64,000 nucleotides of DNA, from positions 1-64,000 of the forward strand of contig JAJYIR010000002.1 of assembly GCA_021789935.1 (NCBI GenBank), written 5' to 3'. The position numbers were made by a program, and so were the translations under genes. Every line of letters begins with the position of its first letter. Position 1 is the first letter of the stretch. The notes below the pieces were generated by a model. The model did not search any database. It was not told where the DNA came from and saw nothing but the letters and a program-made list of their open reading frames with translations. Below are positions 123 to 63,947 of this stretch, piece after piece. Origin of the DNA: Nitrospirota bacterium. Its GTDB lineage: Bacteria; Nitrospirota; Thermodesulfovibrionia; Thermodesulfovibrionales; JdFR-88.

Positions 123-407
123 CTAGCAGCCCTCTATCATTCTTCTTTCGGGGGCCGGCTTTACTCCCGTAACCACTCCATTGTTCACGGTGACCGCAGC
201 CTTCCCGGTCTTCACGCTCTTTATATTTACGGACTTTCCTACTTTCAGGACCTTGTCTTTACCGCCGGCGGGGCAGAAAGTGATTGTTTCCGTCTTTGTG
301 TTTACCACTTTAATGGTGCCCTGCATCGTAGAGGCCGCGGCAAACGCCATGGACATGATAGACAAAACAAAAACCAGAGTTGCTAGAATTACGACCGCCT
401 TTTTCAT
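123..407 (-). CDS. Small exported protein of unknown function
   Basis: A 94-residue protein with a classic signal peptide (MKKAVVILA followed by a hydrophobic run and AFAAA), so it is exported. The start at 407 is chosen because AAGGAGG lies 5 bases upstream; the longer frame to 461 has no ribosome site and would bury the signal peptide. The mature part is about 70 residues, rich in Thr, Val and Lys, with alternating hydrophobic residues suggesting a small beta structure, and one Cys in the middle plus a C-terminal Cys (ends MIEGC). The stop codon lies at the edge of the suspected insertion element, so the last residues may have been altered by the insertion. No family recognised. Confidence 0.6.
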   Translation of the reverse strand: MKKAVVILATLVFVLSIMSMAFAAASTMQGTIKVVNTKTETITFCPAGGKDKVLKVGKSVNIKSVKTGKAAVTVNNGVVTGVKPAPERRMIEGC

Positions 408-554
408 CTCATCCTCCTTAGAGTTAATTTTAAAAAAAAACCGTCCCTTGTAAATCTTCATCCCACAAGCGGTAATTCTTGATTAATAATCTACCACAAT
501 TGGAAGATTTTTTAAACTTTCAATTGTGCTCTGAACGGCCGGTGGGCAATCGAG

Positions 555-51976: not shown

Positions 51977-52055
51977 AGAACATGGCAAAATAAAACAATA
52001 AAACATTTAAAACTCAAGGGTCTGTCTGAAAAAATGAGGAGGTAACCGGGTTTTT

Positions 52056-52790
52056 ATGCTTATCGAGCGCGAACTTAAACGCTACAACCGCCAGATGCTC
52101 ATGGAGGGCTGGGGGGAAGAGACACAAAAGAAACTGAAAAACTCAACTGTGTTCATAGCGGGGGCCGGAGGGCTTGGCTCGCCTGTGGCCATCTACCTGG
52201 CGGTGGCGGGTATCGGCCATATAAGGATATGCGATTTCGATTCCCCGGACTGGTCCAACCTGAACCGGCAGGTGCTTCACAGCCCCTCAAGGATAGGCAT
52301 TAACAAAGCGGTCTCCGGAAAGATGACCTTAAACGAGCTTAACCCGGATGTGGAGATAACGGCATTTACGGAAAAGATAACCGGCGAATCGGTGGACGAG
52401 CTGGCGGGAAAGGCGGACATCATATTGGACTGCATGGACAACTTCCCCACCAGGTATGTCCTCAACGAGTGCGCCATGAAAAAAGGCATCCCCCTCGTCT
52501 TTGGAAGCATCTGGGGAATGGAAGGCAGGCTGAGCTTCATAAAAGCGCCGGAGACCCCATGTCTCAGGTGCATTTACCCGGAAGCGCCGCCTTCCGAGGT
52601 GTTCCCGGTGGTTGGAGCCACTCCCGGGGTCATAGGCTCCCTGCAGGTGCTGGAGGCGCTGAAATACCTCACCGGCATCGGCGAAAACCATAAAGGCAAG
52701 CTTCTCGTATGGAACGGATACAAAATGGAGTTCAAAAGCTATAAAGCCTACAAGGACCCAGAATGCGCCTCATGCGGTAAGAATGGATAA
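52056..52790 (+). CDS. ThiF/MoeB/HesA-family adenylating enzyme
   Basis: A 244-residue E1-like enzyme that adenylates the C-terminal glycine of a small sulfur-carrier protein. Signatures are RYNRQMLMEGWGEETQKKL, the ATP site FIAGAGGLGSPVAIYLAVAG, DFDSPDWSNLNRQVLH, DCMDNFPTRYVLNE and two CxxC zinc pairs (CLRC and CASC). In ThiF and MoeB these feed sulfur into thiamin or molybdopterin. No ThiS, MoaD or thi gene is adjacent, so the partner is unknown. The stop codon lies within the first copy of a 75-base tandem repeat. GAGGAGGT lies 14 bases before the ATG. Confidence 0.9.
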   Translation: MLIERELKRYNRQMLMEGWGEETQKKLKNSTVFIAGAGGLGSPVAIYLAVAGIGHIRICDFDSPDWSNLNRQVLHSPSRIGINKAVSGKMTLNELNPDVEITAFTEKITGESVDELAGKADIILDCMDNFPTRYVLNECAMKKGIPLVFGSIWGMEGRLSFIKAPETPCLRCIYPEAPPSEVFPVVGATPGVIGSLQVLEALKYLTGIGENHKGKLLVWNGYKMEFKSYKAYKDPECASCGKNG

Positions 52791-52932
52791 CGAGCGTAAA
52801 GCTAGCGGATCTGAATGAATAAAAAAATCCCTGCATTCGAGACCCAAGGGGTCTACAATGGATAACGAGCGCAAAGCGGGCGAATCCGGCAAATCAAGGG
52901 AGCCCTTACATTCGATCCCCGCAGGGAGTACA
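52783..52932 (+). repeat. Two imperfect tandem copies of a 75-base unit before bioA
   Basis: Copy 1 (52783-52857) and copy 2 (52858-52932) both start ATGGATAACGAGCG, share AAAGC, GCG, ATC, CCCT and CATTCGA blocks at the same positions, and end in a small hairpin (GACCC-aag-GGGTC; ATCCCC-gca-GGGAGT). Copy 1 contains the thiF-like stop codon and a 11-codon frame; copy 2 holds a 26-codon frame (52858-52938) with the same MDNERKA start whose TGA overlaps the bioA GTG. The second hairpin also supplies the bioA ribosome site. Confidence 0.75.
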
Positions 52933-52934
52933 CA

Positions 52935-54410
52935 GTGACCTCTTTCAACTCTTCGCCTTCGGGCGATAAGAAGTCCCCAAGCGATAAAATGTCCAGTGGT
53001 AATAAGATCTCTCTGGGCGGCAGGATAAAGGGCCTGGAGGCCATAGACAAGGCCCACGTCTGGCACCCTTTCACGCAGATGAAGGACTGGGCGCAGGGCG
53101 ATCCGCTCATAATCACGGAGGCCAGGGACTGCTTCATAAAAGACATCCGGGGCAGATGGTATCTTGACGGTGTGTCCTCATTATGGGTGAATACTCTCGG
53201 CCATAGAAAAAAAGAGATAAACGCGGCCATCACCGCCCAGCTTGCGAAGGCCGCGCATACGACCCTCCTCGGGCTGGCAAACGAGGCATCCATAGAGCTT
53301 GCCGGCAGGCTTGCCGCGCTGATGGAGAAAAGCTTCGCCCCATTTTCAGCGCCGCCGGACAAAAAAAACAAAAAACTGACGCGGATATTCTATTCCGATA
53401 ACGGGTCTACCGCGGTAGAGGTAGGCCTCAAGATGGCTTTCCAGTACTGGAGGCACAAGGGGGAGAGAGGCAGATCCCTCTTCGTGTCGCTTGAAAACGG
53501 CTATCATGGGGACACGATAGGTGCGGTCAGCGTCGGAGGGGTGGAGATGTTCCACGATGTTTTCAGGCCGCTTCTGTTTGACACCCTGAAAGCTCCCTCC
53601 CCATATTGCTACAGATGCGGACTGGGGCTCGAATATCCGGCGTGCGGCCTGGCCTGCACCGGCCCGCTGGAGGATTTCTTTAAGACCCGGGGGCAAGAGA
53701 TAGCGGCATTCGTGCTTGAGCCAATGGTGCAGGCCGCAGGCGGCATGATCATCTTCCCAGACGGCTATTTAAAAAAGGTAAAAGAGCTTTGCGAGAAATA
53801 CGGCGTCCTTTTAATAGCGGACGAGGTGGCGACAGGGTTTGGAAGGACCGGCAGAATGTTCGCCTGCGAGCATGAGGGCGTTGTTCCGGACATACTGTGC
53901 CTTTCAAAGGGAATAACCGGCGGATATATGCCTCTTGCCGTCACCATAACCAATGACGAGGTTTACGGGGCCTTCCTGGGCGGGTACGAGGAACTGAAGA
54001 CTTTTTTCCACGGGCATTCCTACACCGGCAACCCTCTTGCCTGCAGCGCGGCCCTGGCAGTGCTGGAGATATTCGAGAATGAAAAAGTGATCGACGGGCT
54101 CTCCCCCAAAATCACCCTGCTGCAGGAAAGACTTAAAGAAATAGGCGCCCATGCGCGCGTTGGCCAGGCAAAGAGCCTGGGGCTTATGGGCAGGATTGAG
54201 CTGGTTGAGGACAAACCCCACGGGACGCCTTACCCCTGGGAAGAGAAAATGGGCTGGAAGGTGGCGCTTCGGGCGCTTGAAAAAGGGCTGTTCATCCGCC
54301 CCCTCGGCAATGTTATGGTCCTGATGCCGCCGCTTTCCATAAGCCTTGAGAACCTGGACCGGATGATGGATATGGTCCATTGTTCCATCTGCGGCGCGTT
54401 CGGCGGATAG
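52935..54410 (+). CDS. bioA: Adenosylmethionine-8-amino-7-oxononanoate aminotransferase
   Basis: Biotin pathway enzyme that transfers an amino group from S-adenosylmethionine to KAPA. Signatures: AHVWHPFTQMKDW, YLDGVSSLWVNTLGH, DNGSTAVEVGLKMAFQYW, LLIADEVATGFGRTG and the PLP lysine in CLSKGITGGYMPLAV. The start is GTG at 52935 with GGGAG 6 bases upstream. It gives 491 residues, about 35 more than usual at the N-terminus. That extension (residues 9-32) is made of four six-residue repeats. An internal ATG at 52989 would still leave part of it. No other bio gene is adjacent. Confidence 0.93.
   Translation: MTSFNSSPSGDKKSPSDKMSSGNKISLGGRIKGLEAIDKAHVWHPFTQMKDWAQGDPLIITEARDCFIKDIRGRWYLDGVSSLWVNTLGHRKKEINAAITAQLAKAAHTTLLGLANEASIELAGRLAALMEKSFAPFSAPPDKKNKKLTRIFYSDNGSTAVEVGLKMAFQYWRHKGERGRSLFVSLENGYHGDTIGAVSVGGVEMFHDVFRPLLFDTLKAPSPYCYRCGLGLEYPACGLACTGPLEDFFKTRGQEIAAFVLEPMVQAAGGMIIFPDGYLKKVKELCEKYGVLLIADEVATGFGRTGRMFACEHEGVVPDILCLSKGITGGYMPLAVTITNDEVYGAFLGGYEELKTFFHGHSYTGNPLACSAALAVLEIFENEKVIDGLSPKITLLQERLKEIGAHARVGQAKSLGLMGRIELVEDKPHGTPYPWEEKMGWKVALRALEKGLFIRPLGNVMVLMPPLSISLENLDRMMDMVHCSICGAFGG
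52959..53030 (+). repeat. Four degenerate 18-base repeats at the start of bioA
   Basis: Read as codons the units are SGDKKS, PSDKMS, SGNKIS and LGGRIK. At DNA level units 1 to 3 share the core GCGATAAGA/GCGATAAAA/GGTAATAAGA followed by TCC or TCT. The array forms the extra N-terminus of BioA and lies 26 bases after the 75-base tandem repeat. Confidence 0.65.
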
Positions 54411-54423
54411 AAAAAAGACCATG

Positions 54424-54462
54424 GGGAAGCCGCTTAAAGATAAAGCGTTCCCTTTGTTTTTT
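54424..54462 (+). terminator. Terminator after bioA
   Basis: Stem GGGAA-gc-CGCTT with AAGCG-TTCCC, followed by a T-rich run interrupted by one G, 14 bases after the bioA stop codon. Confidence 0.6.
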
Positions 54463-54472
54463 GTGCGTTCTA

Positions 54473-54501
54473 TTCACATGATTTCCGTATGGCGGTATAA
54501 T
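54473..54501 (+). promoter_or_regulatory. Sigma-70 promoter of the aldolase gene
   Basis: TTCACA (54473-54478), 17-base spacer, perfect TATAAT (54496-54501). The start near 54508 leaves a 5' leader of about 92 bases rich in A and T runs. Confidence 0.7.
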
Positions 54502-54599
54502 GTTTAGATATTCACGGCTTTATTGTCAAAAAAAATTTTTCCCGTAAAACTTTTTTTAAAGACTGGCAGGAAAAAATTTTCCTTAAGGAGGGGTTTGCG

Positions 54600-55934
54600 A
54601 TGAAGCACTTTAGTGATGTTGTGGAAACAAAAGGCACTGTGACTCTTAAAGACAGGGCTGCGTTCATTGAAAATCTGGACGGTTATCTTTACGAGGCTGT
54701 ATTCGAGCCCAATGCGGAGCGGAAGATCGCCCTTTTGACGGCCATAAAAGAGGCCGCGAAAGCGGAGGGCGTTATACCCTGCTCGATACATGATTTCTAT
54801 ATGGAGATGGGCAGAAATTACGCGGGCTTCACCGTGCCGGCCATCAACATAAGGGGGCTGACATACGACGTGGCGAGGGCGATATTCAGAAAGGCGCTTG
54901 AGCACAAGGTGGGCGCGTTCATATTCGAGATAGCCCGCTCGGAGATAGGCTACACCAAGCAGAGGCCGCTTGAGTACTCTACGGTAGTGCTGGCGGCCGC
55001 CCTGAAGGAAGGGTACAAGGGGCCTGTTTTCATCCAGGGGGACCATTTCCAGTTCTCGCTCAAGAACTACCAGAAGGGAAAAGAAGGCGAGACGGAGTAC
55101 ATCAGAGGGTTGATAAAAGAGGCAATCGACGCCGAGTTCTATAACATAGACATCGACGCTTCTACCCTGGTAGACCTCTCCAGGCCCACCGTCAAGGAAC
55201 AGCAGAGGCCCAATTTCGAGCACACCGCCATGCTGGCCGAGTTTATCAGGAGCAATGAGCCCGCGGGCATCCATGTTTCCATCGGCGGCGAGATAGGTGA
55301 GATAGGCGGCAAAAACAGCACCGCGGATGAGCTTTCCGCATACCTTGAGGGGTTCAACGAGAGCTTTAAAGGCACCGATGGCCTCAGCAAACTGAGCGTG
55401 CAGACCGGCACTTCCCACGGAGGCGTTGTGCTGCCTGACGGTTCACTTGCCAAGGTGAAGATAGATTTCGAGACCCTGAAGGTGCTCTCCGATCTGGCAC
55501 GAAAAAAATACACTCTGTCCGGCTGCGTACAGCACGGGGCCTCCACCCTCCCAGAAGAGGCTTTTGACATGTTTCCCAAAACCGGCACGGTAGAGGTGCA
55601 TCTGGCCACCGGTTTTCAGAACATAATCTACGACAGCAAACACCTGCCGCAAGACTTCAAAAAAGAAGTCTACCAGTTCATAAAAACCGAGTACGCCGCG
55701 GAGAAGAAGGAGAGCGAGACGGAGGACCAGTTCATCTACAAGACAAGAAAGAAGGGTTTTGGCCCGCTCAAACAGAAATGGTGGGACTTGCCTGCCGGGA
55801 TACGGACGGAGATAATGAAAGAGATAGAGGCGAAGTTCGAGCTCCTTTTCGACAAGCTCAAGGTAAAAAACAGCATGGATATTGTGAATAGAAACATCAA
55901 GCCGGTCGCGGTCAAAAAGGAAGTTTTGCTTTAG
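54600..55934 (+). CDS. Class II fructose-bisphosphate aldolase-like enzyme
   Basis: A 444-residue class II (zinc) aldolase. The metal and substrate motifs are recognisable: IQGDHFQFSLKNY (His), IDASTLVD, SIGGEIGEIGGKNSTADE (Glu and the glycine loop), VQTGTSHGGVVLPDGS (His), and LSGCVQHGASTLPEEAF (His and phosphate site). It is about 100 residues longer than common class II enzymes, with an extended C-terminal helical part, and belongs to a divergent subgroup. The likely role is triose/fructose bisphosphate interconversion in glycolysis or gluconeogenesis, but a related sugar phosphate is possible. AAGGAGG precedes the ATG; it stands alone with its own promoter and terminator. Confidence 0.85.
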   Translation: MKHFSDVVETKGTVTLKDRAAFIENLDGYLYEAVFEPNAERKIALLTAIKEAAKAEGVIPCSIHDFYMEMGRNYAGFTVPAINIRGLTYDVARAIFRKALEHKVGAFIFEIARSEIGYTKQRPLEYSTVVLAAALKEGYKGPVFIQGDHFQFSLKNYQKGKEGETEYIRGLIKEAIDAEFYNIDIDASTLVDLSRPTVKEQQRPNFEHTAMLAEFIRSNEPAGIHVSIGGEIGEIGGKNSTADELSAYLEGFNESFKGTDGLSKLSVQTGTSHGGVVLPDGSLAKVKIDFETLKVLSDLARKKYTLSGCVQHGASTLPEEAFDMFPKTGTVEVHLATGFQNIIYDSKHLPQDFKKEVYQFIKTEYAAEKKESETEDQFIYKTRKKGFGPLKQKWWDLPAGIRTEIMKEIEAKFELLFDKLKVKNSMDIVNRNIKPVAVKKEVLL

Positions 55935-55967
55935 GCCCATCTGATAGCGGGGAAAAATGCGGGGAGC

Positions 55968-56010
55968 CCGGAAGGAGGAAAAACAAAAAACCTTCCGGTC
56001 TCTCCTTTTT
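55968..56010 (+). terminator. Terminator after the aldolase gene
   Basis: Stem CCGGAAGG/CCTTCCGG around an A-rich loop, then TCTCC and five T. Confidence 0.7.
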
Positions 56011-56016
56011 AATGCC

Positions 56017-56051
56017 AAAAAAAGCCGGGAGGGCCTTGCGGCCCTGCCGGC
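56017..56051 (-). terminator. Strong terminator closing the sulfur-gene operon
   Basis: On the minus strand the stem GCCGG-c-AGGGCC, loop GCAA, GGCCCT-c-CCGGC is followed by seven T, 50 bases after the porin stop codon. Confidence 0.85.
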
Positions 56052-56100
56052 AGTCAACCAGGGGTTGGGAATCCAATGAGGCTTTGTTTTATTCTATAAT

Positions 56101-57297
56101 CTAGAACCTGTACTGAAGCATTGCCGTCACGGTGTTAAAGCTCTGTGAGTCCTGGTTTACCTCCTGACTGAAATCCGTCCTTGAGTACTGCACGGTCACC
56201 CTCAGGTTCTCCCCGTCTATCAGGTAGTTCACACCCGCGCCCGTCCAGGTCAGGTCCTGATTAAATACGTTAAACAGGTCAGCGTACCTCCATTTCTCAT
56301 AGCGCACGAAGGGCTGCACCTGCCCGGGGCCTATTCTGCCCGGCAGAAGATAGGCGGCCTTGACATACCAGCCATTCTTTTCGCCATCCTGGCCTATACT
56401 GTTGGGGTCCGGGTTGCTGCCCTCGTATGCGCCATCGAAGTCTGTCTTGAGATAGGCGCCGGAGAGGGTGACCGCGGAGGTCCCGTTTGTAAGCGGGTAT
56501 TCCATGAAGGCGTCCGCCGTCCATGCGTAATAGTTTTTTGACCCGGTGTGCGCGATGGTGTCCGAGTACACGGCACCGGGCTCAAACTGGCCGCCCACGC
56601 CGAAAGTCAGCACTTTCTTTTTCCCGAGGTATGTGCCTTTGTACCCATAGGCATACTCCGGGTCCCAGAGGGAGACGTGGAACCTGGCCGTGTACATAAG
56701 GCTGCTTTGCGGCGCGCCATTGCCGTCATTTCCCTTTGAGACCTCCACACGGTACTGGCTTTTGATGTTTGGCAGATTTCCCCAGAACACAACGCCCGTA
56801 TCCCTGCTGTGTTTCAGGGTGTAGATGAAAAGCGAACGGTCCAAAGTGAGCGGCACAAAACAGTCCTCAAGGTTTTCCCTTGTGAGCTGTATCTTCTGTT
56901 TGCCGGCATAAATCCTGAATTCGTTGCTGAAATCCGCCATAAAGTATGCGTCCAGCACGGAAAAATCGGTGCCCGGACTGTCGCTCACGACAAGGTCGTC
57001 GACGTTTCTTTCCCCTACGTACTCCAGTTGCACCATTGCTCCGTACTTGTCTGTGCCGTGCACCTGGACCGTAAGCCTGTTTCTTCTGAAAAACAAATCT
57101 GTGGAATCTCCCTGCCCGCTGGTGCCCGAGCCCTTGTCTCTCCATACGCCGTAAAGCTGGCCCTGCAGGGCGAACTTTATGAAAGCCCCCTGGTCGCCGA
57201 TAACGATGGGAGGCAGCGCATGGGCGCTGCCGGCCGCAAGAAAGAACGAGACTGCAAGTAGCGCAATCAATAACACAGTTTTTTTCGCACCCTTCAT
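56101..57297 (-). CDS. Outer-membrane porin, phosphate-selective O/P type
   Basis: A 398-residue exported beta-barrel. The start at 57297 follows GGAGGAAGG; the frame is open to 57375 but that part overlaps the rhodanese gene. A signal peptide ends GSAHALPP. The mature protein opens with FIKFALQGQLYGVWRD, then FFRRNRLTVQVHG, and alternating amphipathic strands to a C-terminal aromatic (MLQYRF), the usual barrel end. This is the form of the OprP/OprO-like porins. As the last gene of the operon it would let the small substrate of the pathway cross the outer membrane; its selectivity cannot be read from sequence. Confidence 0.85.
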   Translation of the reverse strand: MKGAKKTVLLIALLAVSFFLAAGSAHALPPIVIGDQGAFIKFALQGQLYGVWRDKGSGTSGQGDSTDLFFRRNRLTVQVHGTDKYGAMVQLEYVGERNVDDLVVSDSPGTDFSVLDAYFMADFSNEFRIYAGKQKIQLTRENLEDCFVPLTLDRSLFIYTLKHSRDTGVVFWGNLPNIKSQYRVEVSKGNDGNGAPQSSLMYTARFHVSLWDPEYAYGYKGTYLGKKKVLTFGVGGQFEPGAVYSDTIAHTGSKNYYAWTADAFMEYPLTNGTSAVTLSGAYLKTDFDGAYEGSNPDPNSIGQDGEKNGWYVKAAYLLPGRIGPGQVQPFVRYEKWRYADLFNVFNQDLTWTGAGVNYLIDGENLRVTVQYSRTDFSQEVNQDSQSFNTVTAMLQYRF

Positions 57298-57368
57298 GAC
57301 TGACCTTCCTCCTGCCCCTTTTAAAGACGGGGCTTTGTTTTTTTTGGGCGCAAGTTTCTCTTTTTTCG

Positions 57369-58703
57369 TTAACATCCTATGTTGCCTCCTCCACCGCTAC
57401 CGCTGCCGCCGCTGCCGCCGGAGAAGTATGCGCTGTCCTGCTCGTTTATCCTGTTCAAGTCGGTATCGAAGGAGTTGACAGGATAGGTCCCGTTGTCGGT
57501 ACCATCTTCGATATTCGCGCAGCTGGTGCCTGGAGGGTTGAAAGTGAGATTTGCCGTGCGCTGGGCCGTATCCGTCCTCCATGGGGAGTTCGGGTCCAGA
57601 GGGCCGCAGTTGGCGGTCGATGCCAGCATGCCCCATTGACTCCAGGAGCCGTCATAGTTTTCGACGTTCCAGCCCAGGACGGAGTCGATCGCCACAAAGG
57701 CCCCCGCTGCTATGACCCCCGTGCGGCAGTGCACGATAATAGTTTCCGAAGAGTTGATCCCGTTTGCGGCAAGCATCGAGGCCATGTCCGAGGCAGAGAG
57801 GAAGACCTTGTAGGTCTGGCTGGTGCCGGTCACAGTCTTGTAGAAAAAATTGGAATTTACAGCGATGGCGCCCTTGATGTGGCCTTCAAAAGCCACATAT
57901 GTCTTGGCAGCCTTCCCCGGCCCGCTGGGCCACACTCCAGGGGTCTGGTCCGCATCCCCGCTGTAAGAGGATTTAACATCGTAGCCGTCGCCGTCCTGGC
58001 CTCTTGCGTCTATCACGGCGGTATTAGTGTCCTTGCCGTCCGCAAAGTTTATCATGCCCGCCAGGGAGGCCCGGAGATCGCCCCTGAAAGAGGCATTGTC
58101 CTTGACGCTGTATGTGGAAGCAGTAATGGCCGGTGAGGCCGCGGTTGTCAGTCCGTACTGGTCCGCGTAGGCGGCGTCAAGACCGTTAAGGATCTTGAGT
58201 CTGTCCTTGGAAAATCCCCAGTAGCGGAATGTCCAGTAAGCCCTGCCAACGGTCCAGTATGGAGAAACGCTCTTTGCAGTCGGATCCGAACTTGTAAATA
58301 CAATGGTCGTATTCTGGTCAATCCCGTATTTCTGAACAAGGGCGTCCATCGTGGGGCCGTCGAGGACCATATTGACGTCCGTAAGAACCCCTTCGTTGCG
58401 GTTTTCATAAAGGCTGTTCGAGTCCACCCACTGGGCGCCTGGAATATGGCCGGCCGAGTAGTCTGCCGAGGTGCCAAGGTCAAGGATTACCACCTTGTTG
58501 TACCCCGTCCCGTTCACCTGCCCGCCATCAACCCAGCTCTTGACGGTCGCGGCGTCCACCACAACCCCCGTAGAGGCAGAGGACGGTGGATTGTAGCTTG
58601 ATGTCCCCCCCCCTCCGCCGCAACCCTGAAACGTAAGAGCAAGAGCAGAGACCAGCGCCAGAAAAAGGAGCAGGCCCGTCTTTCTCCCCGGTTGTCTAAT
58701 CAT
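57369..58703 (-). CDS. Exported tandem-rhodanese lipoprotein with a C-terminal cysteine
   Basis: A 444-residue sulfurtransferase. The start at 58703 has GGGGAGG upstream. The signal peptide ends LTFQGC followed by glycines, a probable lipobox. Two rhodanese domains follow: the first (YSAGHIPGAQW) has no cysteine at its active-site loop (VFTSSDPTAKS), and the second has C326 in IIVHCRTGV. After the folded part comes a long linker and a flexible Gly/Ser tail ending NIGC, so the last residue is cysteine. Such a tail suits a mobile persulfide carrier, which is inference. It lies between tusA and the porin gene. Confidence 0.87.
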   Translation of the reverse strand: MIRQPGRKTGLLLFLALVSALALTFQGCGGGGGTSSYNPPSSASTGVVVDAATVKSWVDGGQVNGTGYNKVVILDLGTSADYSAGHIPGAQWVDSNSLYENRNEGVLTDVNMVLDGPTMDALVQKYGIDQNTTIVFTSSDPTAKSVSPYWTVGRAYWTFRYWGFSKDRLKILNGLDAAYADQYGLTTAASPAITASTYSVKDNASFRGDLRASLAGMINFADGKDTNTAVIDARGQDGDGYDVKSSYSGDADQTPGVWPSGPGKAAKTYVAFEGHIKGAIAVNSNFFYKTVTGTSQTYKVFLSASDMASMLAANGINSSETIIVHCRTGVIAAGAFVAIDSVLGWNVENYDGSWSQWGMLASTANCGPLDPNSPWRTDTAQRTANLTFNPPGTSCANIEDGTDNGTYPVNSFDTDLNRINEQDSAYFSGGSGGSGSGGGGNIGC

Positions 58704-58773
58704 CGAGTTACCTCCCCAAGTATTTTGTGAAATGGTTTCATTTTTTATTTTTTTCAAACCTTTCCCCCCCGGA

Positions 58774-59034
58774 TCACTTCTGTATCAAAAAAATAAACTC
58801 ACCTCCTTCGTCCCTCTGGGACAGAAGCTTGTATCCGGCCCTTTCGCATAGTGATGGAATGGAGTGTTTGACGCTGCTGTCGTTTGCCCTGATCTCAAGC
58901 GTCTCCCCCGCGCACATGGTTTTCAGCATGCTCATCGTCATAACCATGGGCCTGGGGCATACCAGCCCCTTTACGTCCAGTCTCTTGTTGACCGAGGCGG
59001 TATCCCCGCCTGTCTTCTCCGTACCGGTACTCAT
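58774..59034 (-). CDS. tusA: TusA-family sulfur carrier protein
   Basis: An 86-residue cytoplasmic protein with the family core LDVKGLVCPRPMVMTMSML; the cysteine of the CPxP motif carries persulfide. The C-terminal half (SIPSLCERAGYKLLSQ) is standard. AGGAGG lies 4 bases before the ATG. It sits directly after a YeeE/YedE transporter gene. In other bacteria YeeE and the TusA-like YeeD work together in thiosulfate uptake, so this protein probably accepts sulfur delivered by that transporter. Confidence 0.93.
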   Translation of the reverse strand: MSTGTEKTGGDTASVNKRLDVKGLVCPRPMVMTMSMLKTMCAGETLEIRANDSSVKHSIPSLCERAGYKLLSQRDEGGEFIFLIQK

Positions 59035-59084
59035 ATTTCCTCCTGAAAAGTATTTTTAGTGTTTTGAGTCGATACACCGCCGGT

Positions 59085-60488
59085 TCAGCCTTCCATGTAT
59101 TTCTTGAACGTCCTTCCGCTGAACCACGTCATCATCAGTGCCCATAAAACGATTACCCCTATCACCAGCGCCACCGCCAGAGGATAGCTGTGCAGAATGT
59201 GGGGCAGATACACGTCCCTTATGTTGTGGGAGCCGTAAGGGGCAAAGTAGTGTTTGAACCACGCCGCGTCCCTCATCGGGAACAGCCACGAGGAAACGCA
59301 TATGAGGGTCAGAAGACCGATCCATATCTTTACCTGTCCCTCAGCGGTCCTCCACAGGCTGTCGCTGACGCAGGCCCCGTTTAGAGCCATGCCAATGCCA
59401 AAGAGGGCACCCCCGAGCACCACGCCTATTCCAGCCGGGCTGACAGCAAAAATTTCGGCATATGCCAGATTCGGATTGGCTGCGGCTAGCAGCTTCATGG
59501 GCAGGAAACCCAGTACCAGCAGGATGTATAAAAAGGCTATCGCCCTGGACATGTCCGCAAACCCGGAAAGAAAGGGCTCGCGGTAGGCATGGGCAAAGCA
59601 TATACCGCCCCGCTGCATGGCAAAACCAGTAAGAGTGGCCGCGGCAAATGAAAGGGCAAGGGCGGGATAGCCCATGTTGCCGAACCTGAAGAGGACGAAG
59701 ACCATAACCAGCATCAGCCCCACGGCAAGGTGCGGCTGGTATTTGATGGCGCCCGTCTCACCTCCGTCGGCAGTCTCGGGAAGCCTGGGCCATATGGTCC
59801 GCGTCTTTTCAAAGTGCATGAGCGGCCTGTAGCCCGCCCCGTCAGTGAAGGCAAGGCTCATCGCTATTCGTCGTTTTTCAAGCCATACGATTATCTTCGC
59901 CCCGAAATAGGAGCCAATGCTCATTCCGGCAACCATGAGCAGGGCCTGAACACCCATGGCGCCCATGTTCGTGGTGCTGGCCAGCGGACAGCCGAACATG
60001 AAGATCGTTCCAAAACCCATCAGTATGCCGCCGCTGACTGCAAGGCCGTACTCGCTCTTGTCGAGCGGGACCTTAAGCGAAAACTCCTTGGCCAGAAGGG
60101 CCGCCATAAGCCCTCCGAAGAGTATGCCGAGCATGGTCCCCACTGTGGGCTCAAGAATAGGGTTCGGAAGCTGTCTGAAAAAGTTGATGGTGCCATCAGG
60201 CCAGATATAGCCGCTGAACGGATAGTGCGGCAGCCCTATCTTCCCAAGAAGGCTGTTTATCAGCCCCCCCAGTTCCTTAAGCCCCAGGAAGGTGCCCAAA
60301 GGTTTTGCCTGATCATAGGGGTTTGCCCCGCTCACGGTCCTTGCCAGCGACCATGTCGCGACCCCGTAGGCCATGATGCCCGAGATCGCCATGAAAAGGG
60401 CCGCGAGCCAGAGGGGCCACTTCTCCCTGAAGAATTTCTTGTACCAGGCCCTGAACCAGCCCATTACTCCAAATTCAAAGTCATCCAT
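59085..60488 (-). CDS. YeeE/YedE-family sulfur transporter, long form
   Basis: A 467-residue inner-membrane protein with about 10 to 12 helices. The family's conserved cysteine-glycine elements are present: FGTIFMFGCPLAST, MQRGGICFAHAYRE and GMALNGACVSDSLWR. The first two come from the two internal repeats. The protein is over 100 residues longer than the structurally studied thiosulfate transporter, with an amphipathic N-terminus (GWFRAWYKKFFREKWPLW), an inserted periplasmic loop (about 60-105) and a cytoplasmic loop near 220-255. In the known homologue, thiosulfate is passed along cysteines. AAGGAAGG precedes the ATG; tusA follows 50 bases later. Confidence 0.9.
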   Translation of the reverse strand: MDDFEFGVMGWFRAWYKKFFREKWPLWLAALFMAISGIMAYGVATWSLARTVSGANPYDQAKPLGTFLGLKELGGLINSLLGKIGLPHYPFSGYIWPDGTINFFRQLPNPILEPTVGTMLGILFGGLMAALLAKEFSLKVPLDKSEYGLAVSGGILMGFGTIFMFGCPLASTTNMGAMGVQALLMVAGMSIGSYFGAKIIVWLEKRRIAMSLAFTDGAGYRPLMHFEKTRTIWPRLPETADGGETGAIKYQPHLAVGLMLVMVFVLFRFGNMGYPALALSFAAATLTGFAMQRGGICFAHAYREPFLSGFADMSRAIAFLYILLVLGFLPMKLLAAANPNLAYAEIFAVSPAGIGVVLGGALFGIGMALNGACVSDSLWRTAEGQVKIWIGLLTLICVSSWLFPMRDAAWFKHYFAPYGSHNIRDVYLPHILHSYPLAVALVIGVIVLWALMMTWFSGRTFKKYMEG

Positions 60489-60508
60489 TTTTCCTTAACC
60501 TTCCTTTC

Positions 60509-61000
60509 CTAGCATCCGCCCACGCCGGCCGGAAGGAGCATGAACTGTATTATTCCCCTGCCCATTTCCTTCTTCGTCTTTGCGTCCACCATTACAACCA
60601 GCATGTTGAACTTACCAAGAGGCATGCCTGGCGGGCATTGGAATTCGGCCTTCGCCTGGCCCATTCCGTTTTTAATGGTGACTTGCTTTGGAATGATACT
60701 TATCCCCATCTGGACATATTCCTTCGGGATGCCGAACATCACCTGGCGGCCTTCCGCGTTTTTCACGGTAAACTCAAAACGCAGCGTGGTTGCCCTGCCC
60801 AAGGCTATCTGGGCCCTCGTGACACCTGGCCTGTTTGCATGCCAGGCAAATTGCGCGGTCTGCGTTACGTCAGCAAATGCAACCGAGGTGCTTTTTTGGC
60901 CGCCATTGCCGGACACTGTCACTCCAAAGGCAATGATCAGACATGAAACCAGATACATCAAAACCCTGAAACCGGGTTTTGCCTGTTTTTGTTTACGCAT
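60509..61000 (-). CDS. Exported Ig-like protein ending in VGGC
   Basis: A 163-residue protein with a signal peptide or N-terminal anchor (about 11-42) and an Ig-like beta-sandwich. It contains two cysteines after the signal: C122 in FQCPPGMPLGKFN and C163 as the very last residue (AGVGGC). It is a paralogue of the neighbouring upstream protein: both share GMPLG(K/R) followed by two strands and a LLP/ILP turn before the terminal cysteines. The tail recalls SoxY, whose C-terminal GGCGG cysteine carries sulfur intermediates on an Ig-like domain. Homology to SoxY is not claimed; similarity of design is inference. GGGAGGT precedes the ATG, which overlaps the upstream gene by 8 bases. Confidence 0.75.
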   Translation of the reverse strand: MRKQKQAKPGFRVLMYLVSCLIIAFGVTVSGNGGQKSTSVAFADVTQTAQFAWHANRPGVTRAQIALGRATTLRFEFTVKNAEGRQVMFGIPKEYVQMGISIIPKQVTIKNGMGQAKAEFQCPPGMPLGKFNMLVVMVDAKTKKEMGRGIIQFMLLPAGVGGC

Positions 61001-61523
61001 TTTTGTACCTCCCAGTGTTTTTTGCTTTATTGTCCAATCCTTTGCCTAAAAAACCGTTTTCTCTTTGATTTGTACGGCACATACATGCCGCCCCCGGCAG
61101 GATGATATAAGGTATCGTGACAGAGCATATCTTTGCGCCTCTGACCGCGTCGAGCACCTGGACCACAAGATCATGCCGTCCGAGGGGCATGCCGTCCAGT
61201 ATGTTGAATGACAGGCGGGATGAGGCAACGCCGTCTTTGACCTTTGCCGTTTCCTCAAGCAGGGTTATGCCTTTTACCTTGTCCCTGTCTGAAATGAGGA
61301 ACCTGACCTCAGACACGCTTCCGCCCACCCTAAAGGAGAAAGGGATAACCTTTGGCCTCTCTTCTGTCACCAGCAGAGGGCCGGAAGCCGGCGCTATGAT
61401 GCCGCAGGTGTTTTTTTCTTCCGCACCCTGCACGTGGGAAGACATGGCGGGCAATGCCGGAAGCAGGGACGCCAGTATAACCATTGCCGGAACGATGGCT
61501 CTTTTCATCAGCAGACCGGTCAT
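60993..61523 (-). CDS. Exported Ig-like protein with C-terminal CMC motif
   Basis: A 176-residue protein with a signal peptide (MKRAIVPAMVILASLLPALPA from the second Met at 61508; the first Met at 61523 is also possible). The mature part has strands typical of an Ig-like fold, C40 near the start, C133 in AKICSVTIPY, and C147/C149 in ILPGAACMC. At the position where its paralogue stops (VGGC), this protein continues for 27 polar residues that overlap the next ribosome site. The pair resembles the tandem arrangement of SoxY and SoxZ. Substrate unknown; sulfur carriage is inferred from the operon. Confidence 0.72.
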   Translation of the reverse strand: MTGLLMKRAIVPAMVILASLLPALPAMSSHVQGAEEKNTCGIIAPASGPLLVTEERPKVIPFSFRVGGSVSEVRFLISDRDKVKGITLLEETAKVKDGVASSRLSFNILDGMPLGRHDLVVQVLDAVRGAKICSVTIPYIILPGAACMCRTNQRENGFLGKGLDNKAKNTGRYKNA

Positions 61524-61580: not shown

Positions 61581-61766
61581 TCAGAACACCAGGCTGTTAG
61601 ACTGGTTTTTAAGGTCATCAGGGGCCTTGGTTTGGATTTTACTTTTGGCCAGCGTCTTTAGAGACCCATCCCAGGGCGGCAACATGAACCCCAAGGCAAG
61701 ATAGGCAATTATTATCGCAACCCATAGCCACGGCAGGGTCAACCCCGCCTTCACTTCACCGCTCAT
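61581..61766 (-). CDS. Small single-span membrane protein (61 residues)
   Basis: One strong hydrophobic helix (LPWLWVAIIIAYLALGFML) is flanked by a short acidic start and a basic, polar C-terminal tail. AAGGAGGT lies 6 bases before the ATG, which overlaps the archaemetzincin stop codon (TGATG), so it is translated with it. No family recognised. In this operon it could be an accessory subunit of the long YeeE-type transporter. Confidence 0.7.
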   Translation of the reverse strand: MSGEVKAGLTLPWLWVAIIIAYLALGFMLPPWDGSLKTLAKSKIQTKAPDDLKNQSNSLVF

Positions 61767-62374
61767 CAGCAGACCTCCTTTCTTTTATGAACATCGGATT
61801 TCAATCGCATCGAAAGCTCTTTGCCGCATCTCTCGCAGAACCCGCTGTCCTTATAGTCCGTATCGGTCAGATTGAATGAAAAGAACATTACGCACCTGTG
61901 GTCCTTGCAGTGGCGGAGCCCATAGGAATGTCCCAGTTCGTGTATCGCCGTCTTGGAGGCCCGCCGGGCGATCTTGGCGGGGGCTTCCCCTTTCCTGCCC
62001 AGATGGTAAAGCGACATGACGGACACGCGGGACTCGGGATCGGTAAAGCCAAATACGTGATTGACGCCGGGATGGGAAAGCCCCGTGTCCACTACGCCAA
62101 GGACCCTATCAAAGGCCCTGCGCAGAGGCGCCAGTTGCCTGATAAGATCGGATGCCGGCACCTGCCCGCCCGGGCCGGAAAAACCGGCCCAGCCCTCACC
62201 CTCTTCACCCTTGACCAGCAGCGCCTCCTCGCCAAACGCGCTTTGAACGGCAATCTTCATAATGTCGAGGACCCCCATGCTTATCCCCGCAGCCGGGACA
62301 AGGGCGATGCCGCATTTTTCTTTGGGGATATCTTTCATTCCAGGGAAGGTCTCTTCCAAAACTGTCTGCCTCAA
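61766..62374 (-). CDS. amzA: Archaemetzincin-like metalloprotease
   Basis: The zinc-protease signature is complete: TAIHELGHSYGLRHC (HExxHxxGxxH plus C), then CVMFFS with the Met-turn and a second C-x-x-C (FCERCGKEL), as in archaemetzincins. The start chosen is TTG at 62374 with GGAGGGGG upstream, giving 202 residues; an ATG at 62392 is also downstream of the predicted sigma-54 start site. The frame is open to 62539, but that part lies upstream of the promoter. The protein has no signal peptide in the chosen form and is probably cytoplasmic. Why a protease leads a sulfur operon is unknown. Confidence 0.88.
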   Translation of the reverse strand: MRQTVLEETFPGMKDIPKEKCGIALVPAAGISMGVLDIMKIAVQSAFGEEALLVKGEEGEGWAGFSGPGGQVPASDLIRQLAPLRRAFDRVLGVVDTGLSHPGVNHVFGFTDPESRVSVMSLYHLGRKGEAPAKIARRASKTAIHELGHSYGLRHCKDHRCVMFFSFNLTDTDYKDSGFCERCGKELSMRLKSDVHKRKEVC

Positions 62375-62432
62375 ATTTCCCCCTCCAGCCATCCTTTGAG
62401 ATTTTTTGCGGATCGGGCTTTTCATTGGATAA

Positions 62433-62448
62433 AGCAAGAGAAGTGCCA
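62433..62448 (-). promoter_or_regulatory. Sigma-54 (-24/-12) promoter of the sulfur operon
   Basis: The minus strand reads TGGCACTTCTCTTGCT, an exact TGGCAC-N5-TTGCT match to the RpoN consensus. Transcription would start near 62422, about 30 to 50 bases before the amzA start codon. A sigma-54 activator gene lies directly upstream and an inverted repeat sits about 110 bases upstream of the start site. Confidence 0.85.
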
Positions 62449-62510
62449 GAAGGTGCGAAAGAGCCTGTGATACATAAGGAGGGGAATATCTGATAGCGCC
62501 CTGGTACAAA

Positions 62511-62551
62511 ATACATTTCAAAATGAAAAGATTTTTCATTTTGAAATGTAT
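62511..62551. promoter_or_regulatory. Long inverted repeat, likely upstream activator site
   Basis: Two perfect 19-base arms flank a 3-base centre (62530-62532). Each arm is itself built from TTTCA and TGAAA half-sites three bases apart, so the element contains four half-sites. Its centre is about 109 bases upstream of the predicted sigma-54 start, a normal distance for an enhancer bound by an activator. It also follows the regulator stop codon by 52 bases and could act as a weak terminator, though the stem is AT-rich. Confidence 0.7.
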
Positions 62552-62603: not shown

Positions 62604-63947
62604 TTATTCGAGGTTCAGCTTTTTAAGTTTTCTCCACAGGGTCGTAATGCTTATGCCCAGCGCCTGGGCCGCCTTTGCCTTCTGACCGTCGTATGCGCTC
62701 AGGGCTTTCTGGATGAGGACTTTTTCCGAATCTTCGAGTTTAAAAACGCCCGTGCGCGCGAAAGGAACGGACTCGTGGTTCCTTTTAAGTATTTCCTTTT
62801 GAAGGGACCTTGCGGTTATCTCGCTGCTCCCTTCGATAACTACCGCGTGCTCTATGCAGTTTTCAAGTTCCCTGACGTTTCCCGGCCACTGATACTCTGC
62901 AAGCGCCGCTATGGCTTCCGGGGAGATGGAATTTATTTCTTTAGAGAACCTGCTGCGGTACTTTGCAAGGAAATGGCGGGCCAGATACGGGATGTCGTCC
63001 CTCCGTTCCCTCAGCGGCGGGATCGCAAGCGAAATAATGTTAAGCCGGTAAAAAAGGTCTTTTCTGAATCTGCCTTCCTCCACGTCTTTGGCAAGGTTCG
63101 TGTTGCAGGCGGTTATCACGCGCACATTTACGGATACAGGTTCAGTGCCCCCCACTTTCATAAAACTGCCTTCCTGCAATACCCTGAGCAATTTGATCTG
63201 GAGGGAGGGGGACGCGTTGTTCAGCTCGTCGAGAAATATTGTGCCCCGGTCCGCCGCTTCGAAAAGCCCTTTTTTTCTGGCGGACGCACCGGTGAAAGAG
63301 CCCTTTTCATATCCGAAAAGCTCCGCCTCTATGAGCGTTTCCGGCAAAGCCCCGCAATTGACGGGCAGGAATTTTTCTTTGGCCCTCGGGCTGAGCCTGT
63401 GAATGAGCCTGGCGATCATCTCCTTGCCGGTTCCGGTCTCCCCCTGTATGAGCACCGTAGTGTCCAGCGGGGCCACCTTTCCGACCATTTTTTTAAGCTC
63501 CGATACCGCCCGGCTTGAGCCAACGAACTCGTAATCAGCGTCACTTTCCAGCCCTGCGGAAAGCCTCAAGTTTTCGTCGACAAGCCTGCGGTACTCCGCC
63601 GCCCTCTTTACCGTGAACAGAAGGACGTCGGGCTCGAAGGGTTTTTGTATGTAGTCATAGGCGCCCTCCTTCATCGCCCCAACGGCGGAATCAACCGTGG
63701 CAAAACCCGTTATCATCACAACGGGGGTGAAGGGGCTTAGCTCCTTCGCACAGGCAAGGACTTCCATGCCGTCCGAGTCCGGCATCCTGAGGTCCGTCAG
63801 GATGACGTCGAAATCCTGCTCCCTTATACGGGGTATGGCCTCCATGCCGTTTTGGCTCTCGGTAACGCTGTAACCCTGCTTCTCAAGAAGTTCCCTGATG
63901 AGGCCCCTCATCCTGAAATCGTCTTCGACTACAAGGACCCTGAACAA
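62604..63947 (-). CDS. Sigma-54-dependent response regulator (NtrC family)
   Basis: A 447-residue activator. The receiver domain has the acidic pair at 9-10, phosphorylated D52 (LTDLRMPDSDG), T80 and K102 (QKPF). The AAA+ domain has Walker A GETGTGKE (169-176), the sigma-54 loop GSFTGA (216-221, GAFTGA in most) and the FLDELNN Walker B. A C-terminal Fis-type helix-turn-helix (KAKAAQALGISITTLWRKL) binds DNA. The start is TTG at 63947 with GGAGG 4 bases upstream. It lies just upstream of a sigma-54 promoter with a palindromic enhancer, so it most likely controls that operon. A cognate kinase may lie beyond the right edge. Confidence 0.95.
   Translation of the reverse strand: MFRVLVVEDDFRMRGLIRELLEKQGYSVTESQNGMEAIPRIREQDFDVILTDLRMPDSDGMEVLACAKELSPFTPVVMITGFATVDSAVGAMKEGAYDYIQKPFEPDVLLFTVKRAAEYRRLVDENLRLSAGLESDADYEFVGSSRAVSELKKMVGKVAPLDTTVLIQGETGTGKEMIARLIHRLSPRAKEKFLPVNCGALPETLIEAELFGYEKGSFTGASARKKGLFEAADRGTIFLDELNNASPSLQIKLLRVLQEGSFMKVGGTEPVSVNVRVITACNTNLAKDVEEGRFRKDLFYRLNIISLAIPPLRERRDDIPYLARHFLAKYRSRFSKEINSISPEAIAALAEYQWPGNVRELENCIEHAVVIEGSSEITARSLQKEILKRNHESVPFARTGVFKLEDSEKVLIQKALSAYDGQKAKAAQALGISITTLWRKLKKLNLE

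Follow-up and report, generated by a model that had tools for sequence, protein, structure and literature searches.

Conserved C-terminal cysteines in a YeeE/TusA and ExtH/ExtI operon of Nitrospirota, and a candidate sulfane-sulfur relay across the cell envelope

Several described systems bear on sulfur import through YeeE-family proteins. The YeeE-like protein SoxT1A imports sulfur, with SoxYZ as its proposed source; its neighbours are a membrane protein of 56 aa and a DsbA-like protein whose C-terminus bears a CxxC (PMC11582611). The structure of YeeE-YeeD presents a line of cysteines (PMC11073785). In the YTD cluster, YedE, TusA and DsrE occur together with conserved hypothetical proteins, which are DsrEFH type II (PMC13293266). 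A further term of comparison is offered by Geobacter sulfurreducens, in which selenite and tellurite are reduced normally only if ExtI is present (PMC5877670) and ExtH is a rhodanese-family lipoprotein (PMC6148476); selenoprotein rhodaneses are also already known (PMC13188914). The route of sulfane sulfur from the outer membrane through YeeE/TusA to Dsr is an open question in both sulfate reducers and sulfur disproportionators. The operon described here is a candidate for the whole chain and includes dedicated exported proteins bearing a single terminal thiol; it would also connect a sulfur import module with the Ext proteins, which are known from work on selenite/tellurite and metals.

The operon lies in a stretch of 64,000 nucleotides (GCA_021789935.1, contig JAJYIR010000002.1, positions 1 to 64,000), the whole of which is called the window below. 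On the minus strand, from 62.5 down to 56.1 kb, an archaemetzincin-like gene and a gene for a 61-aa membrane peptide are followed by genes for two exported Ig-like proteins (P3 and P2), YeeE/YedE, TusA, an ExtH-type rhodanese lipoprotein and an ExtI-type porin, in that order (Table 1). extI adjoins extH, and the two genes overlap. Translation of ExtH more probably begins at an ATG at residue 19 than at the TTG. The sampled homologues are from Nitrospirota, and one broader scan gave three Nitrospirae MAGs.

Table 1. Features of the window, with small exported proteins of other genomes in the last row.
Feature	Position	Strand	Evidence
ExtJ-like small exported protein, ends MIEGC, terminal Cys codon 126-128	123..461	(-)	NF040942 end-to-end, 39 bits (cut-off 52.5)
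ExtI-type outer-membrane porin	56101..57375	(-)	NF040900, 435 bits (cut-off 150); Porin_O_P
ExtH-type rhodanese lipoprotein; lipobox Cys46, catalytic Cys344 (codon 57726-57728), terminal Cys462 (codon 57372-57374)	57369..58757	(-)	NF040901, 287 bits (curated cut-off 200); conserved Cys columns; tree
TusA sulfurtransferase, CPRP motif	58774..59034	(-)	PF01206, 73.6 bits
YeeE/YedE family membrane protein (Sulf_transp)	59085..60488	(-)	PF04143, 109 bits
P2, exported Ig-like protein; ends VGGC, terminal Cys codon 60512-60514	60509..61000	(-)	ORF; homologues; AlphaFold
P3, exported Ig-like protein; CMC codons 61077-61085	60993..61523	(-)	ORF; P2 homology; CxC alignment
61-aa single-helix membrane peptide upstream of P3/P2	61581..61766	(-)	conserved in 10 loci
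Archaemetzincin-like gene, terminal KEVC	61766..62539	(-)	negative control
Sigma-54-type response regulator, neighbour kept in most loci	62604..63947	(-)	type read from sequence
Linker proteins ending in CxC	L098 9686-9970; L105 6564-6929; L108 6812-7210; L109 8415-8630; L113 9087-9389; L198 7074-7346; L199 3732-4118		

The preliminary description had drawn attention to cysteines at or near the C-terminus of three exported proteins of this operon (NIGC in ExtH, VGGC in P2 and CMC in P3), and both their location and their sequence proved right. P2 of the window ends in LLPAGVGGC, and VGGC is the end of 17/17 distinct homologues with an intact end, from about ten genera (G004/G007, which are one contig, and G027/G065, which are near-identical contigs, were not counted as independent). 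The terminal cysteine is written with both TGC and TGT and is followed by any of the three stop codons; in most homologues it is the sole cysteine of the mature protein. The AlphaFold model of P2 is an Ig-like beta-sandwich (residues 61-157, pLDDT about 85) with a C-terminal tail of low confidence, and a Foldseek search with this model returned generic Ig/MSP/PapD-like folds only. The P2 profile gave no match in the PDB, no P2 was found in plasmids, and neither P2 nor P3 matched a Pfam or NCBIfam family. A third Ig-like paralogue (L107, L115, L116 and L117), seen in G027/G065, ends in PAGGD and carries no terminal cysteine.

In P3 of the window the cysteines are near the end and not at it, LLPGAACMC being followed by 27 further residues. 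The CxC is nonetheless invariant in the 10 aligned P3 sequences and present in all P3-type proteins that we read. It is exactly C-terminal (ECLC or KCSC) in six aligned P3 from outside the close relatives of the window, as well as in G268 (ECMC) and G288 (KCSC), whereas in the closest relatives about 20-30 residues follow it, reaching into or towards the start of P2. In G288 the P3-like protein ending in KCSC (L158 611-1084) lies outside any YeeE/TusA cluster, with neighbours that look Fur-like and rubrerythrin-like by eye. P2 and P3 match each other in hhalign (99.9%) and are paralogues, so that the terminal cysteine has two independent origins in the operon, not three.

The ExtH protein of the window ends in GGSGGSGSGGGGNIGC. 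In one clade of ExtH, 15 of 16 members end in GC although the Gly/Ser/Pro-rich tail before it varies in length and sequence, the lone exception (G211) having lost its tail. P2 and this clade keep cysteine as the last residue while the tail changes, and, G211 apart, their homologues neither lack it nor end at variable positions. An AlphaFold model of ExtH, built from 4 sequences, reached a mean pLDDT of 34.5, too low to inform on the geometry of the tail.

The background rate of such ends was estimated over 382 kb of this genome from ORFs that do not overlap and are 100 aa or longer, a count in which P2 is masked by a longer antisense ORF. Only 3/339 ORFs (0.9%) end in cysteine and none ends in CxC; the three are ExtH, the ExtJ-like gene and the archaemetzincin-like gene. 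The KEVC end of the last is kept within the genus only, and we rejected it as a fourth example because its cysteine is not conserved. The earlier claim of three independent examples, unlikely by chance, thus holds as to chance, given this background and the conservation, but must be reduced to two on account of the P2/P3 paralogy. Could the terminal cysteine codons be accidental, for instance a by-product of their overlapping the start codon that follows? In the window, the sequence ATGTTAA lies between extH and extI, so that the last cysteine codon of extH shares bases with an ATG in the extI frame. However, extI has a better start further in, with a Shine-Dalgarno-like GGAGGAAGG ahead of it, and ExtH homologues retain the cysteine, encoded within GGCTGT or GGCTGC, where the overlap is absent; these homologues rule out start-codon overlap as the origin of the cysteine. 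P2 has no such overlap and uses both TGC and TGT, and the non-conserved KEVC is what chance looks like. We therefore regard an accidental origin as very improbable. On the sequences, the observation of terminal cysteines is confirmed, conservation being what decides it.

Cysteines 167, 297, 373 and 397 of YeeE are invariant in 16/16 sequences, and the CPRP motif of TusA is present in 15/15 YeeE-linked homologues. Wherever the flanking sequence is long enough to tell, P2 lies within a YeeE-TusA cluster; these loci span about ten genera. Its rhodanese partner switches, some families having ExtH and others a periplasmic two-domain rhodanese, while P2, YeeE and TusA stay constant; the family f12 has P2 homologues with YeeE/TusA and without ExtH/ExtI. 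dsrA scores above cut-off in 19/20 genomes tested (17 P2 carriers and three relatives without P2), including 16/17 P2 carriers, and is missing only from the carrier G027. A genuine SoxY gene (PF13501) lies about 50 kb from the operon in the same genome, with SoxA- and SoxB-like genes recognised by eye. The YeeE cysteines, the TusA CPRP, a rhodanese whose catalytic cysteine is intact and dsrA together support a sulfur setting, as judged from sequence.

The catalytic site of ExtH provides a further indication. We found an in-frame UGA exactly at the catalytic cysteine of the second rhodanese domain in five ExtH genes from four genera (L040 in G005, L048 and L056 in G055, L049 in G048, and L157 in G268). 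A tRNA-Sec with anticodon tca is present in all four of these genomes and absent from G000, G002 and G070, in which ExtH has cysteine and only tRNA-Ser was found. Downstream of the UGA codons, potential SECIS elements, assessed by folding energy, have z-scores from -1.0 to -2.4; for selenocysteine at the catalytic position the tRNA-Sec evidence is the stronger. Selenocysteine in these relatives would support an active chalcogen-transfer site in ExtH.

We propose, at about even chances, that the operon encodes a relay of sulfane sulfur, possibly of selenium, across the envelope, with the terminal cysteines of P2 and P3 serving as its carrier thiols. The proposal draws on the order and families of the genes, on the invariant terminal cysteines and their occurrence together with YeeE/TusA, and on dsrA elsewhere in these genomes. 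In the order and direction that we infer, sulfur would enter through the ExtI porin or be processed beside it, and the ExtH lipoprotein would load it at Cys344 (selenocysteine in some relatives). P3 (with its CxC) and P2 (with its VGGC), both of them Ig-like domains whose end is short and flexible, would then ferry a persulfide or thiosulfonate to YeeE, a hand-over that parallels the proposed transfer from SoxYZ to SoxT1A (PMC11582611). YeeE, via its conserved cysteines, would pass the sulfur to the cysteine of the TusA CPRP motif in the cytoplasm, and from TusA it would go onward toward the Dsr pathway. The ExtH tail may serve as a last acceptor arm or as a docking end only. Several points count against such a relay: P2 has no detectable SoxY homology and its model retrieves generic folds, the sister clade of ExtH ends in GY, GC ends occur on proteins outside the operon, one P2 paralogue ends in GGD, and ExtI of Geobacter is linked to selenite and tellurite.

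This last link leads to a chemical alternative: rather than carrying sulfane sulfur, the terminal thiols could act on selenite, tellurite or metals at the outer envelope, by binding or reducing them, within an Ext-type module for detoxification or respiration. The ExtH and ExtI families take their names from selenite/tellurite reduction in Geobacter (PMC5877670; PMC6148476), and CxC is a common metal-binding form. Moreover, in GY-type ExtH loci the gene of a small exported protein that ends in CxC often lies between extH and extI. This low-complexity protein (Table 1) was found in seven GY-type genomes and ends mostly in ECxC; in an eighth GY-type genome (G048) an exported protein of Ig/Hydin-like look, lying beyond extI, ends in LLCYC (L111 3527-3964). 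However, we saw no multihaem cytochrome genes beside the operon, YeeE and TusA indicate sulfur import, and the P2 homologues of f12 co-occur with YeeE/TusA where ExtH/ExtI are absent. We consider this alternative unlikely.

A different question is raised by the distribution of the GC end itself. In the sister clade of ExtH, 11/12 members end in PGY or GGY and one in GGYGS, and the GC and GY types are separated by one clean split in the tree (support 100/100). The ExtJ-like family shows the same pair of ends across Nitrospirota, GC in 25 sequences and GY in 2; in one set of relatives of the ExtJ-like protein of the window, GC is the end of 15/15. The protein of the window lies 57 kb from the operon, beside a glutamine synthetase-like gene; although it falls below the ExtJ cut-off (NF040942), its homologues L245 and L242 exceed this threshold, at 78 and 57 bits. 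The end (K)nAIEGC is moreover common to SoxA/TsdA-type cytochromes and a Lys/Asp-repeat protein. A pattern search for [IVM]EGC ends gave a modest excess over a reversed-pattern control, many of the matches not being real protein ends. Small exported CxxCH proteins (L308, L309, L316, L317, L321, L325, L327, L328 and L332) have an IEGC end, mostly after a basic stretch of the KKKKAIEGC type; L308, the one scanned, matches SoxA/TsdA-type cytochrome c.

Since tyrosine is unable to carry sulfur, some of the end signal, at least, may be a recognition tag; that a tyrosine occupies this position in two families of separate origin suggests, from sequence, recognition of the C-terminus. The terminal GC or GY could then be a tag shared by several unrelated exported proteins and not itself a sulfur carrier, read by a common receptor such as a PDZ-type domain, or a disulfide tether grouping the tagged proteins. 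The same GC/GY dichotomy in ExtH (15 GC against 12 GY-type) and in the ExtJ-like family (25 against 2) speaks for this, as do the cytochromes and the repeat protein with (K)nAIEGC ends. On the other hand, P2 never ends in GY, P3 and the small linker proteins end in CxC and not in GC, and the receptor is putative. Several tagged families are also linked to sulfur (the rhodanese and the SoxA/TsdA type), a tag and sulfur chemistry not being exclusive. We hold a tag of this kind to be a serious alternative, if less probable than not. For ExtH, either the carrier thiol or the tag may hold, and the reading as a sulfur arm is weaker and indeed doubtful, given the GY of the sister clade and the GC of unrelated exported proteins encoded elsewhere than in the operon; for P2 a carrier is favoured, because it never ends in GY.

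More broadly, many Nitrospirota may mark unrelated exported proteins with a GC end replaceable by GY, and the marked set may comprise the rhodanese, the ExtJ-like protein, the SoxA/TsdA-type cytochrome, Ig-like carriers and repeat proteins; we put forward both suggestions tentatively and with some doubt. If true, the end would group sulfur- or selenium-handling proteins on a common envelope partner, or represent a general thiol handle. We know of no signal that matches a C-terminal GC or GY, and found no description of a recurrent C-terminal Gly-Cys end.

How, then, does the operon compare with known systems? The preliminary description had likened the tails to sulfur swinging arms such as that of SoxY, and the sulfur setting agrees with this, whereas P2 is not detectably SoxY and the ExtH tail is doubtful as an arm. 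The SoxY family (PF13501) matches neither P2 nor nine of its homologues and finds one other gene in the genome, a profile-profile comparison by hhalign shows no similarity, and Foldseek was equally negative, so we rejected P2 as a SoxY. Like P2, SoxY(Z) is exported and consists of one Ig-like domain, with a Gly-rich end that follows the last strand and bears a cysteine, and in some organisms it is found with YeeE-like transporters; unlike it, P2 ends in VGGC and not in GGCGG (as SoxY of relatives does), and its neighbours are P3 and YeeE, with no adjacent soxZ. P2 would thus be SoxY-like at most by analogy. The same applies to DsrC, the family having no Pfam match in P2, P3 or ExtH.

With the YTD cluster, the operon shares a YedE/YeeE beside TusA and an occurrence in sulfate-reducing or disproportionating Nitrospirota. 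However, it contains no DsrE, and we rejected P2 and P3 as the conserved hypotheticals of that cluster, these being DsrEFH type II (PMC13293266). Some f12 relatives have proteins of DsrE-like look, by eye only and without an NCBIfam match.

As in the Ext cluster of Geobacter (ExtH, ExtI, ExtJ), ExtH and ExtI are adjacent in the window and score above their NCBIfam cut-offs. Unlike there, the ExtJ-like gene sits away from the ExtH/ExtI operon, and by eye the ORFs downstream of extI (52000-56100) include neither ExtJ nor an ExtKL cytochrome; in place of the ExtK-S cytochromes, the operon has P3, P2, YeeE and TusA. With SoxT and TsuA-TsuB (YeeE-YeeD), finally, it shares a YeeE-family channel, conserved cysteines and a TusA-family acceptor, and the small membrane peptide nearby recalls the one beside soxT1A. 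TsuA scores lie far below the family cut-offs, and the operon differs from these systems in its two dedicated exported Ig-like proteins and its outer-membrane rhodanese/porin pair.
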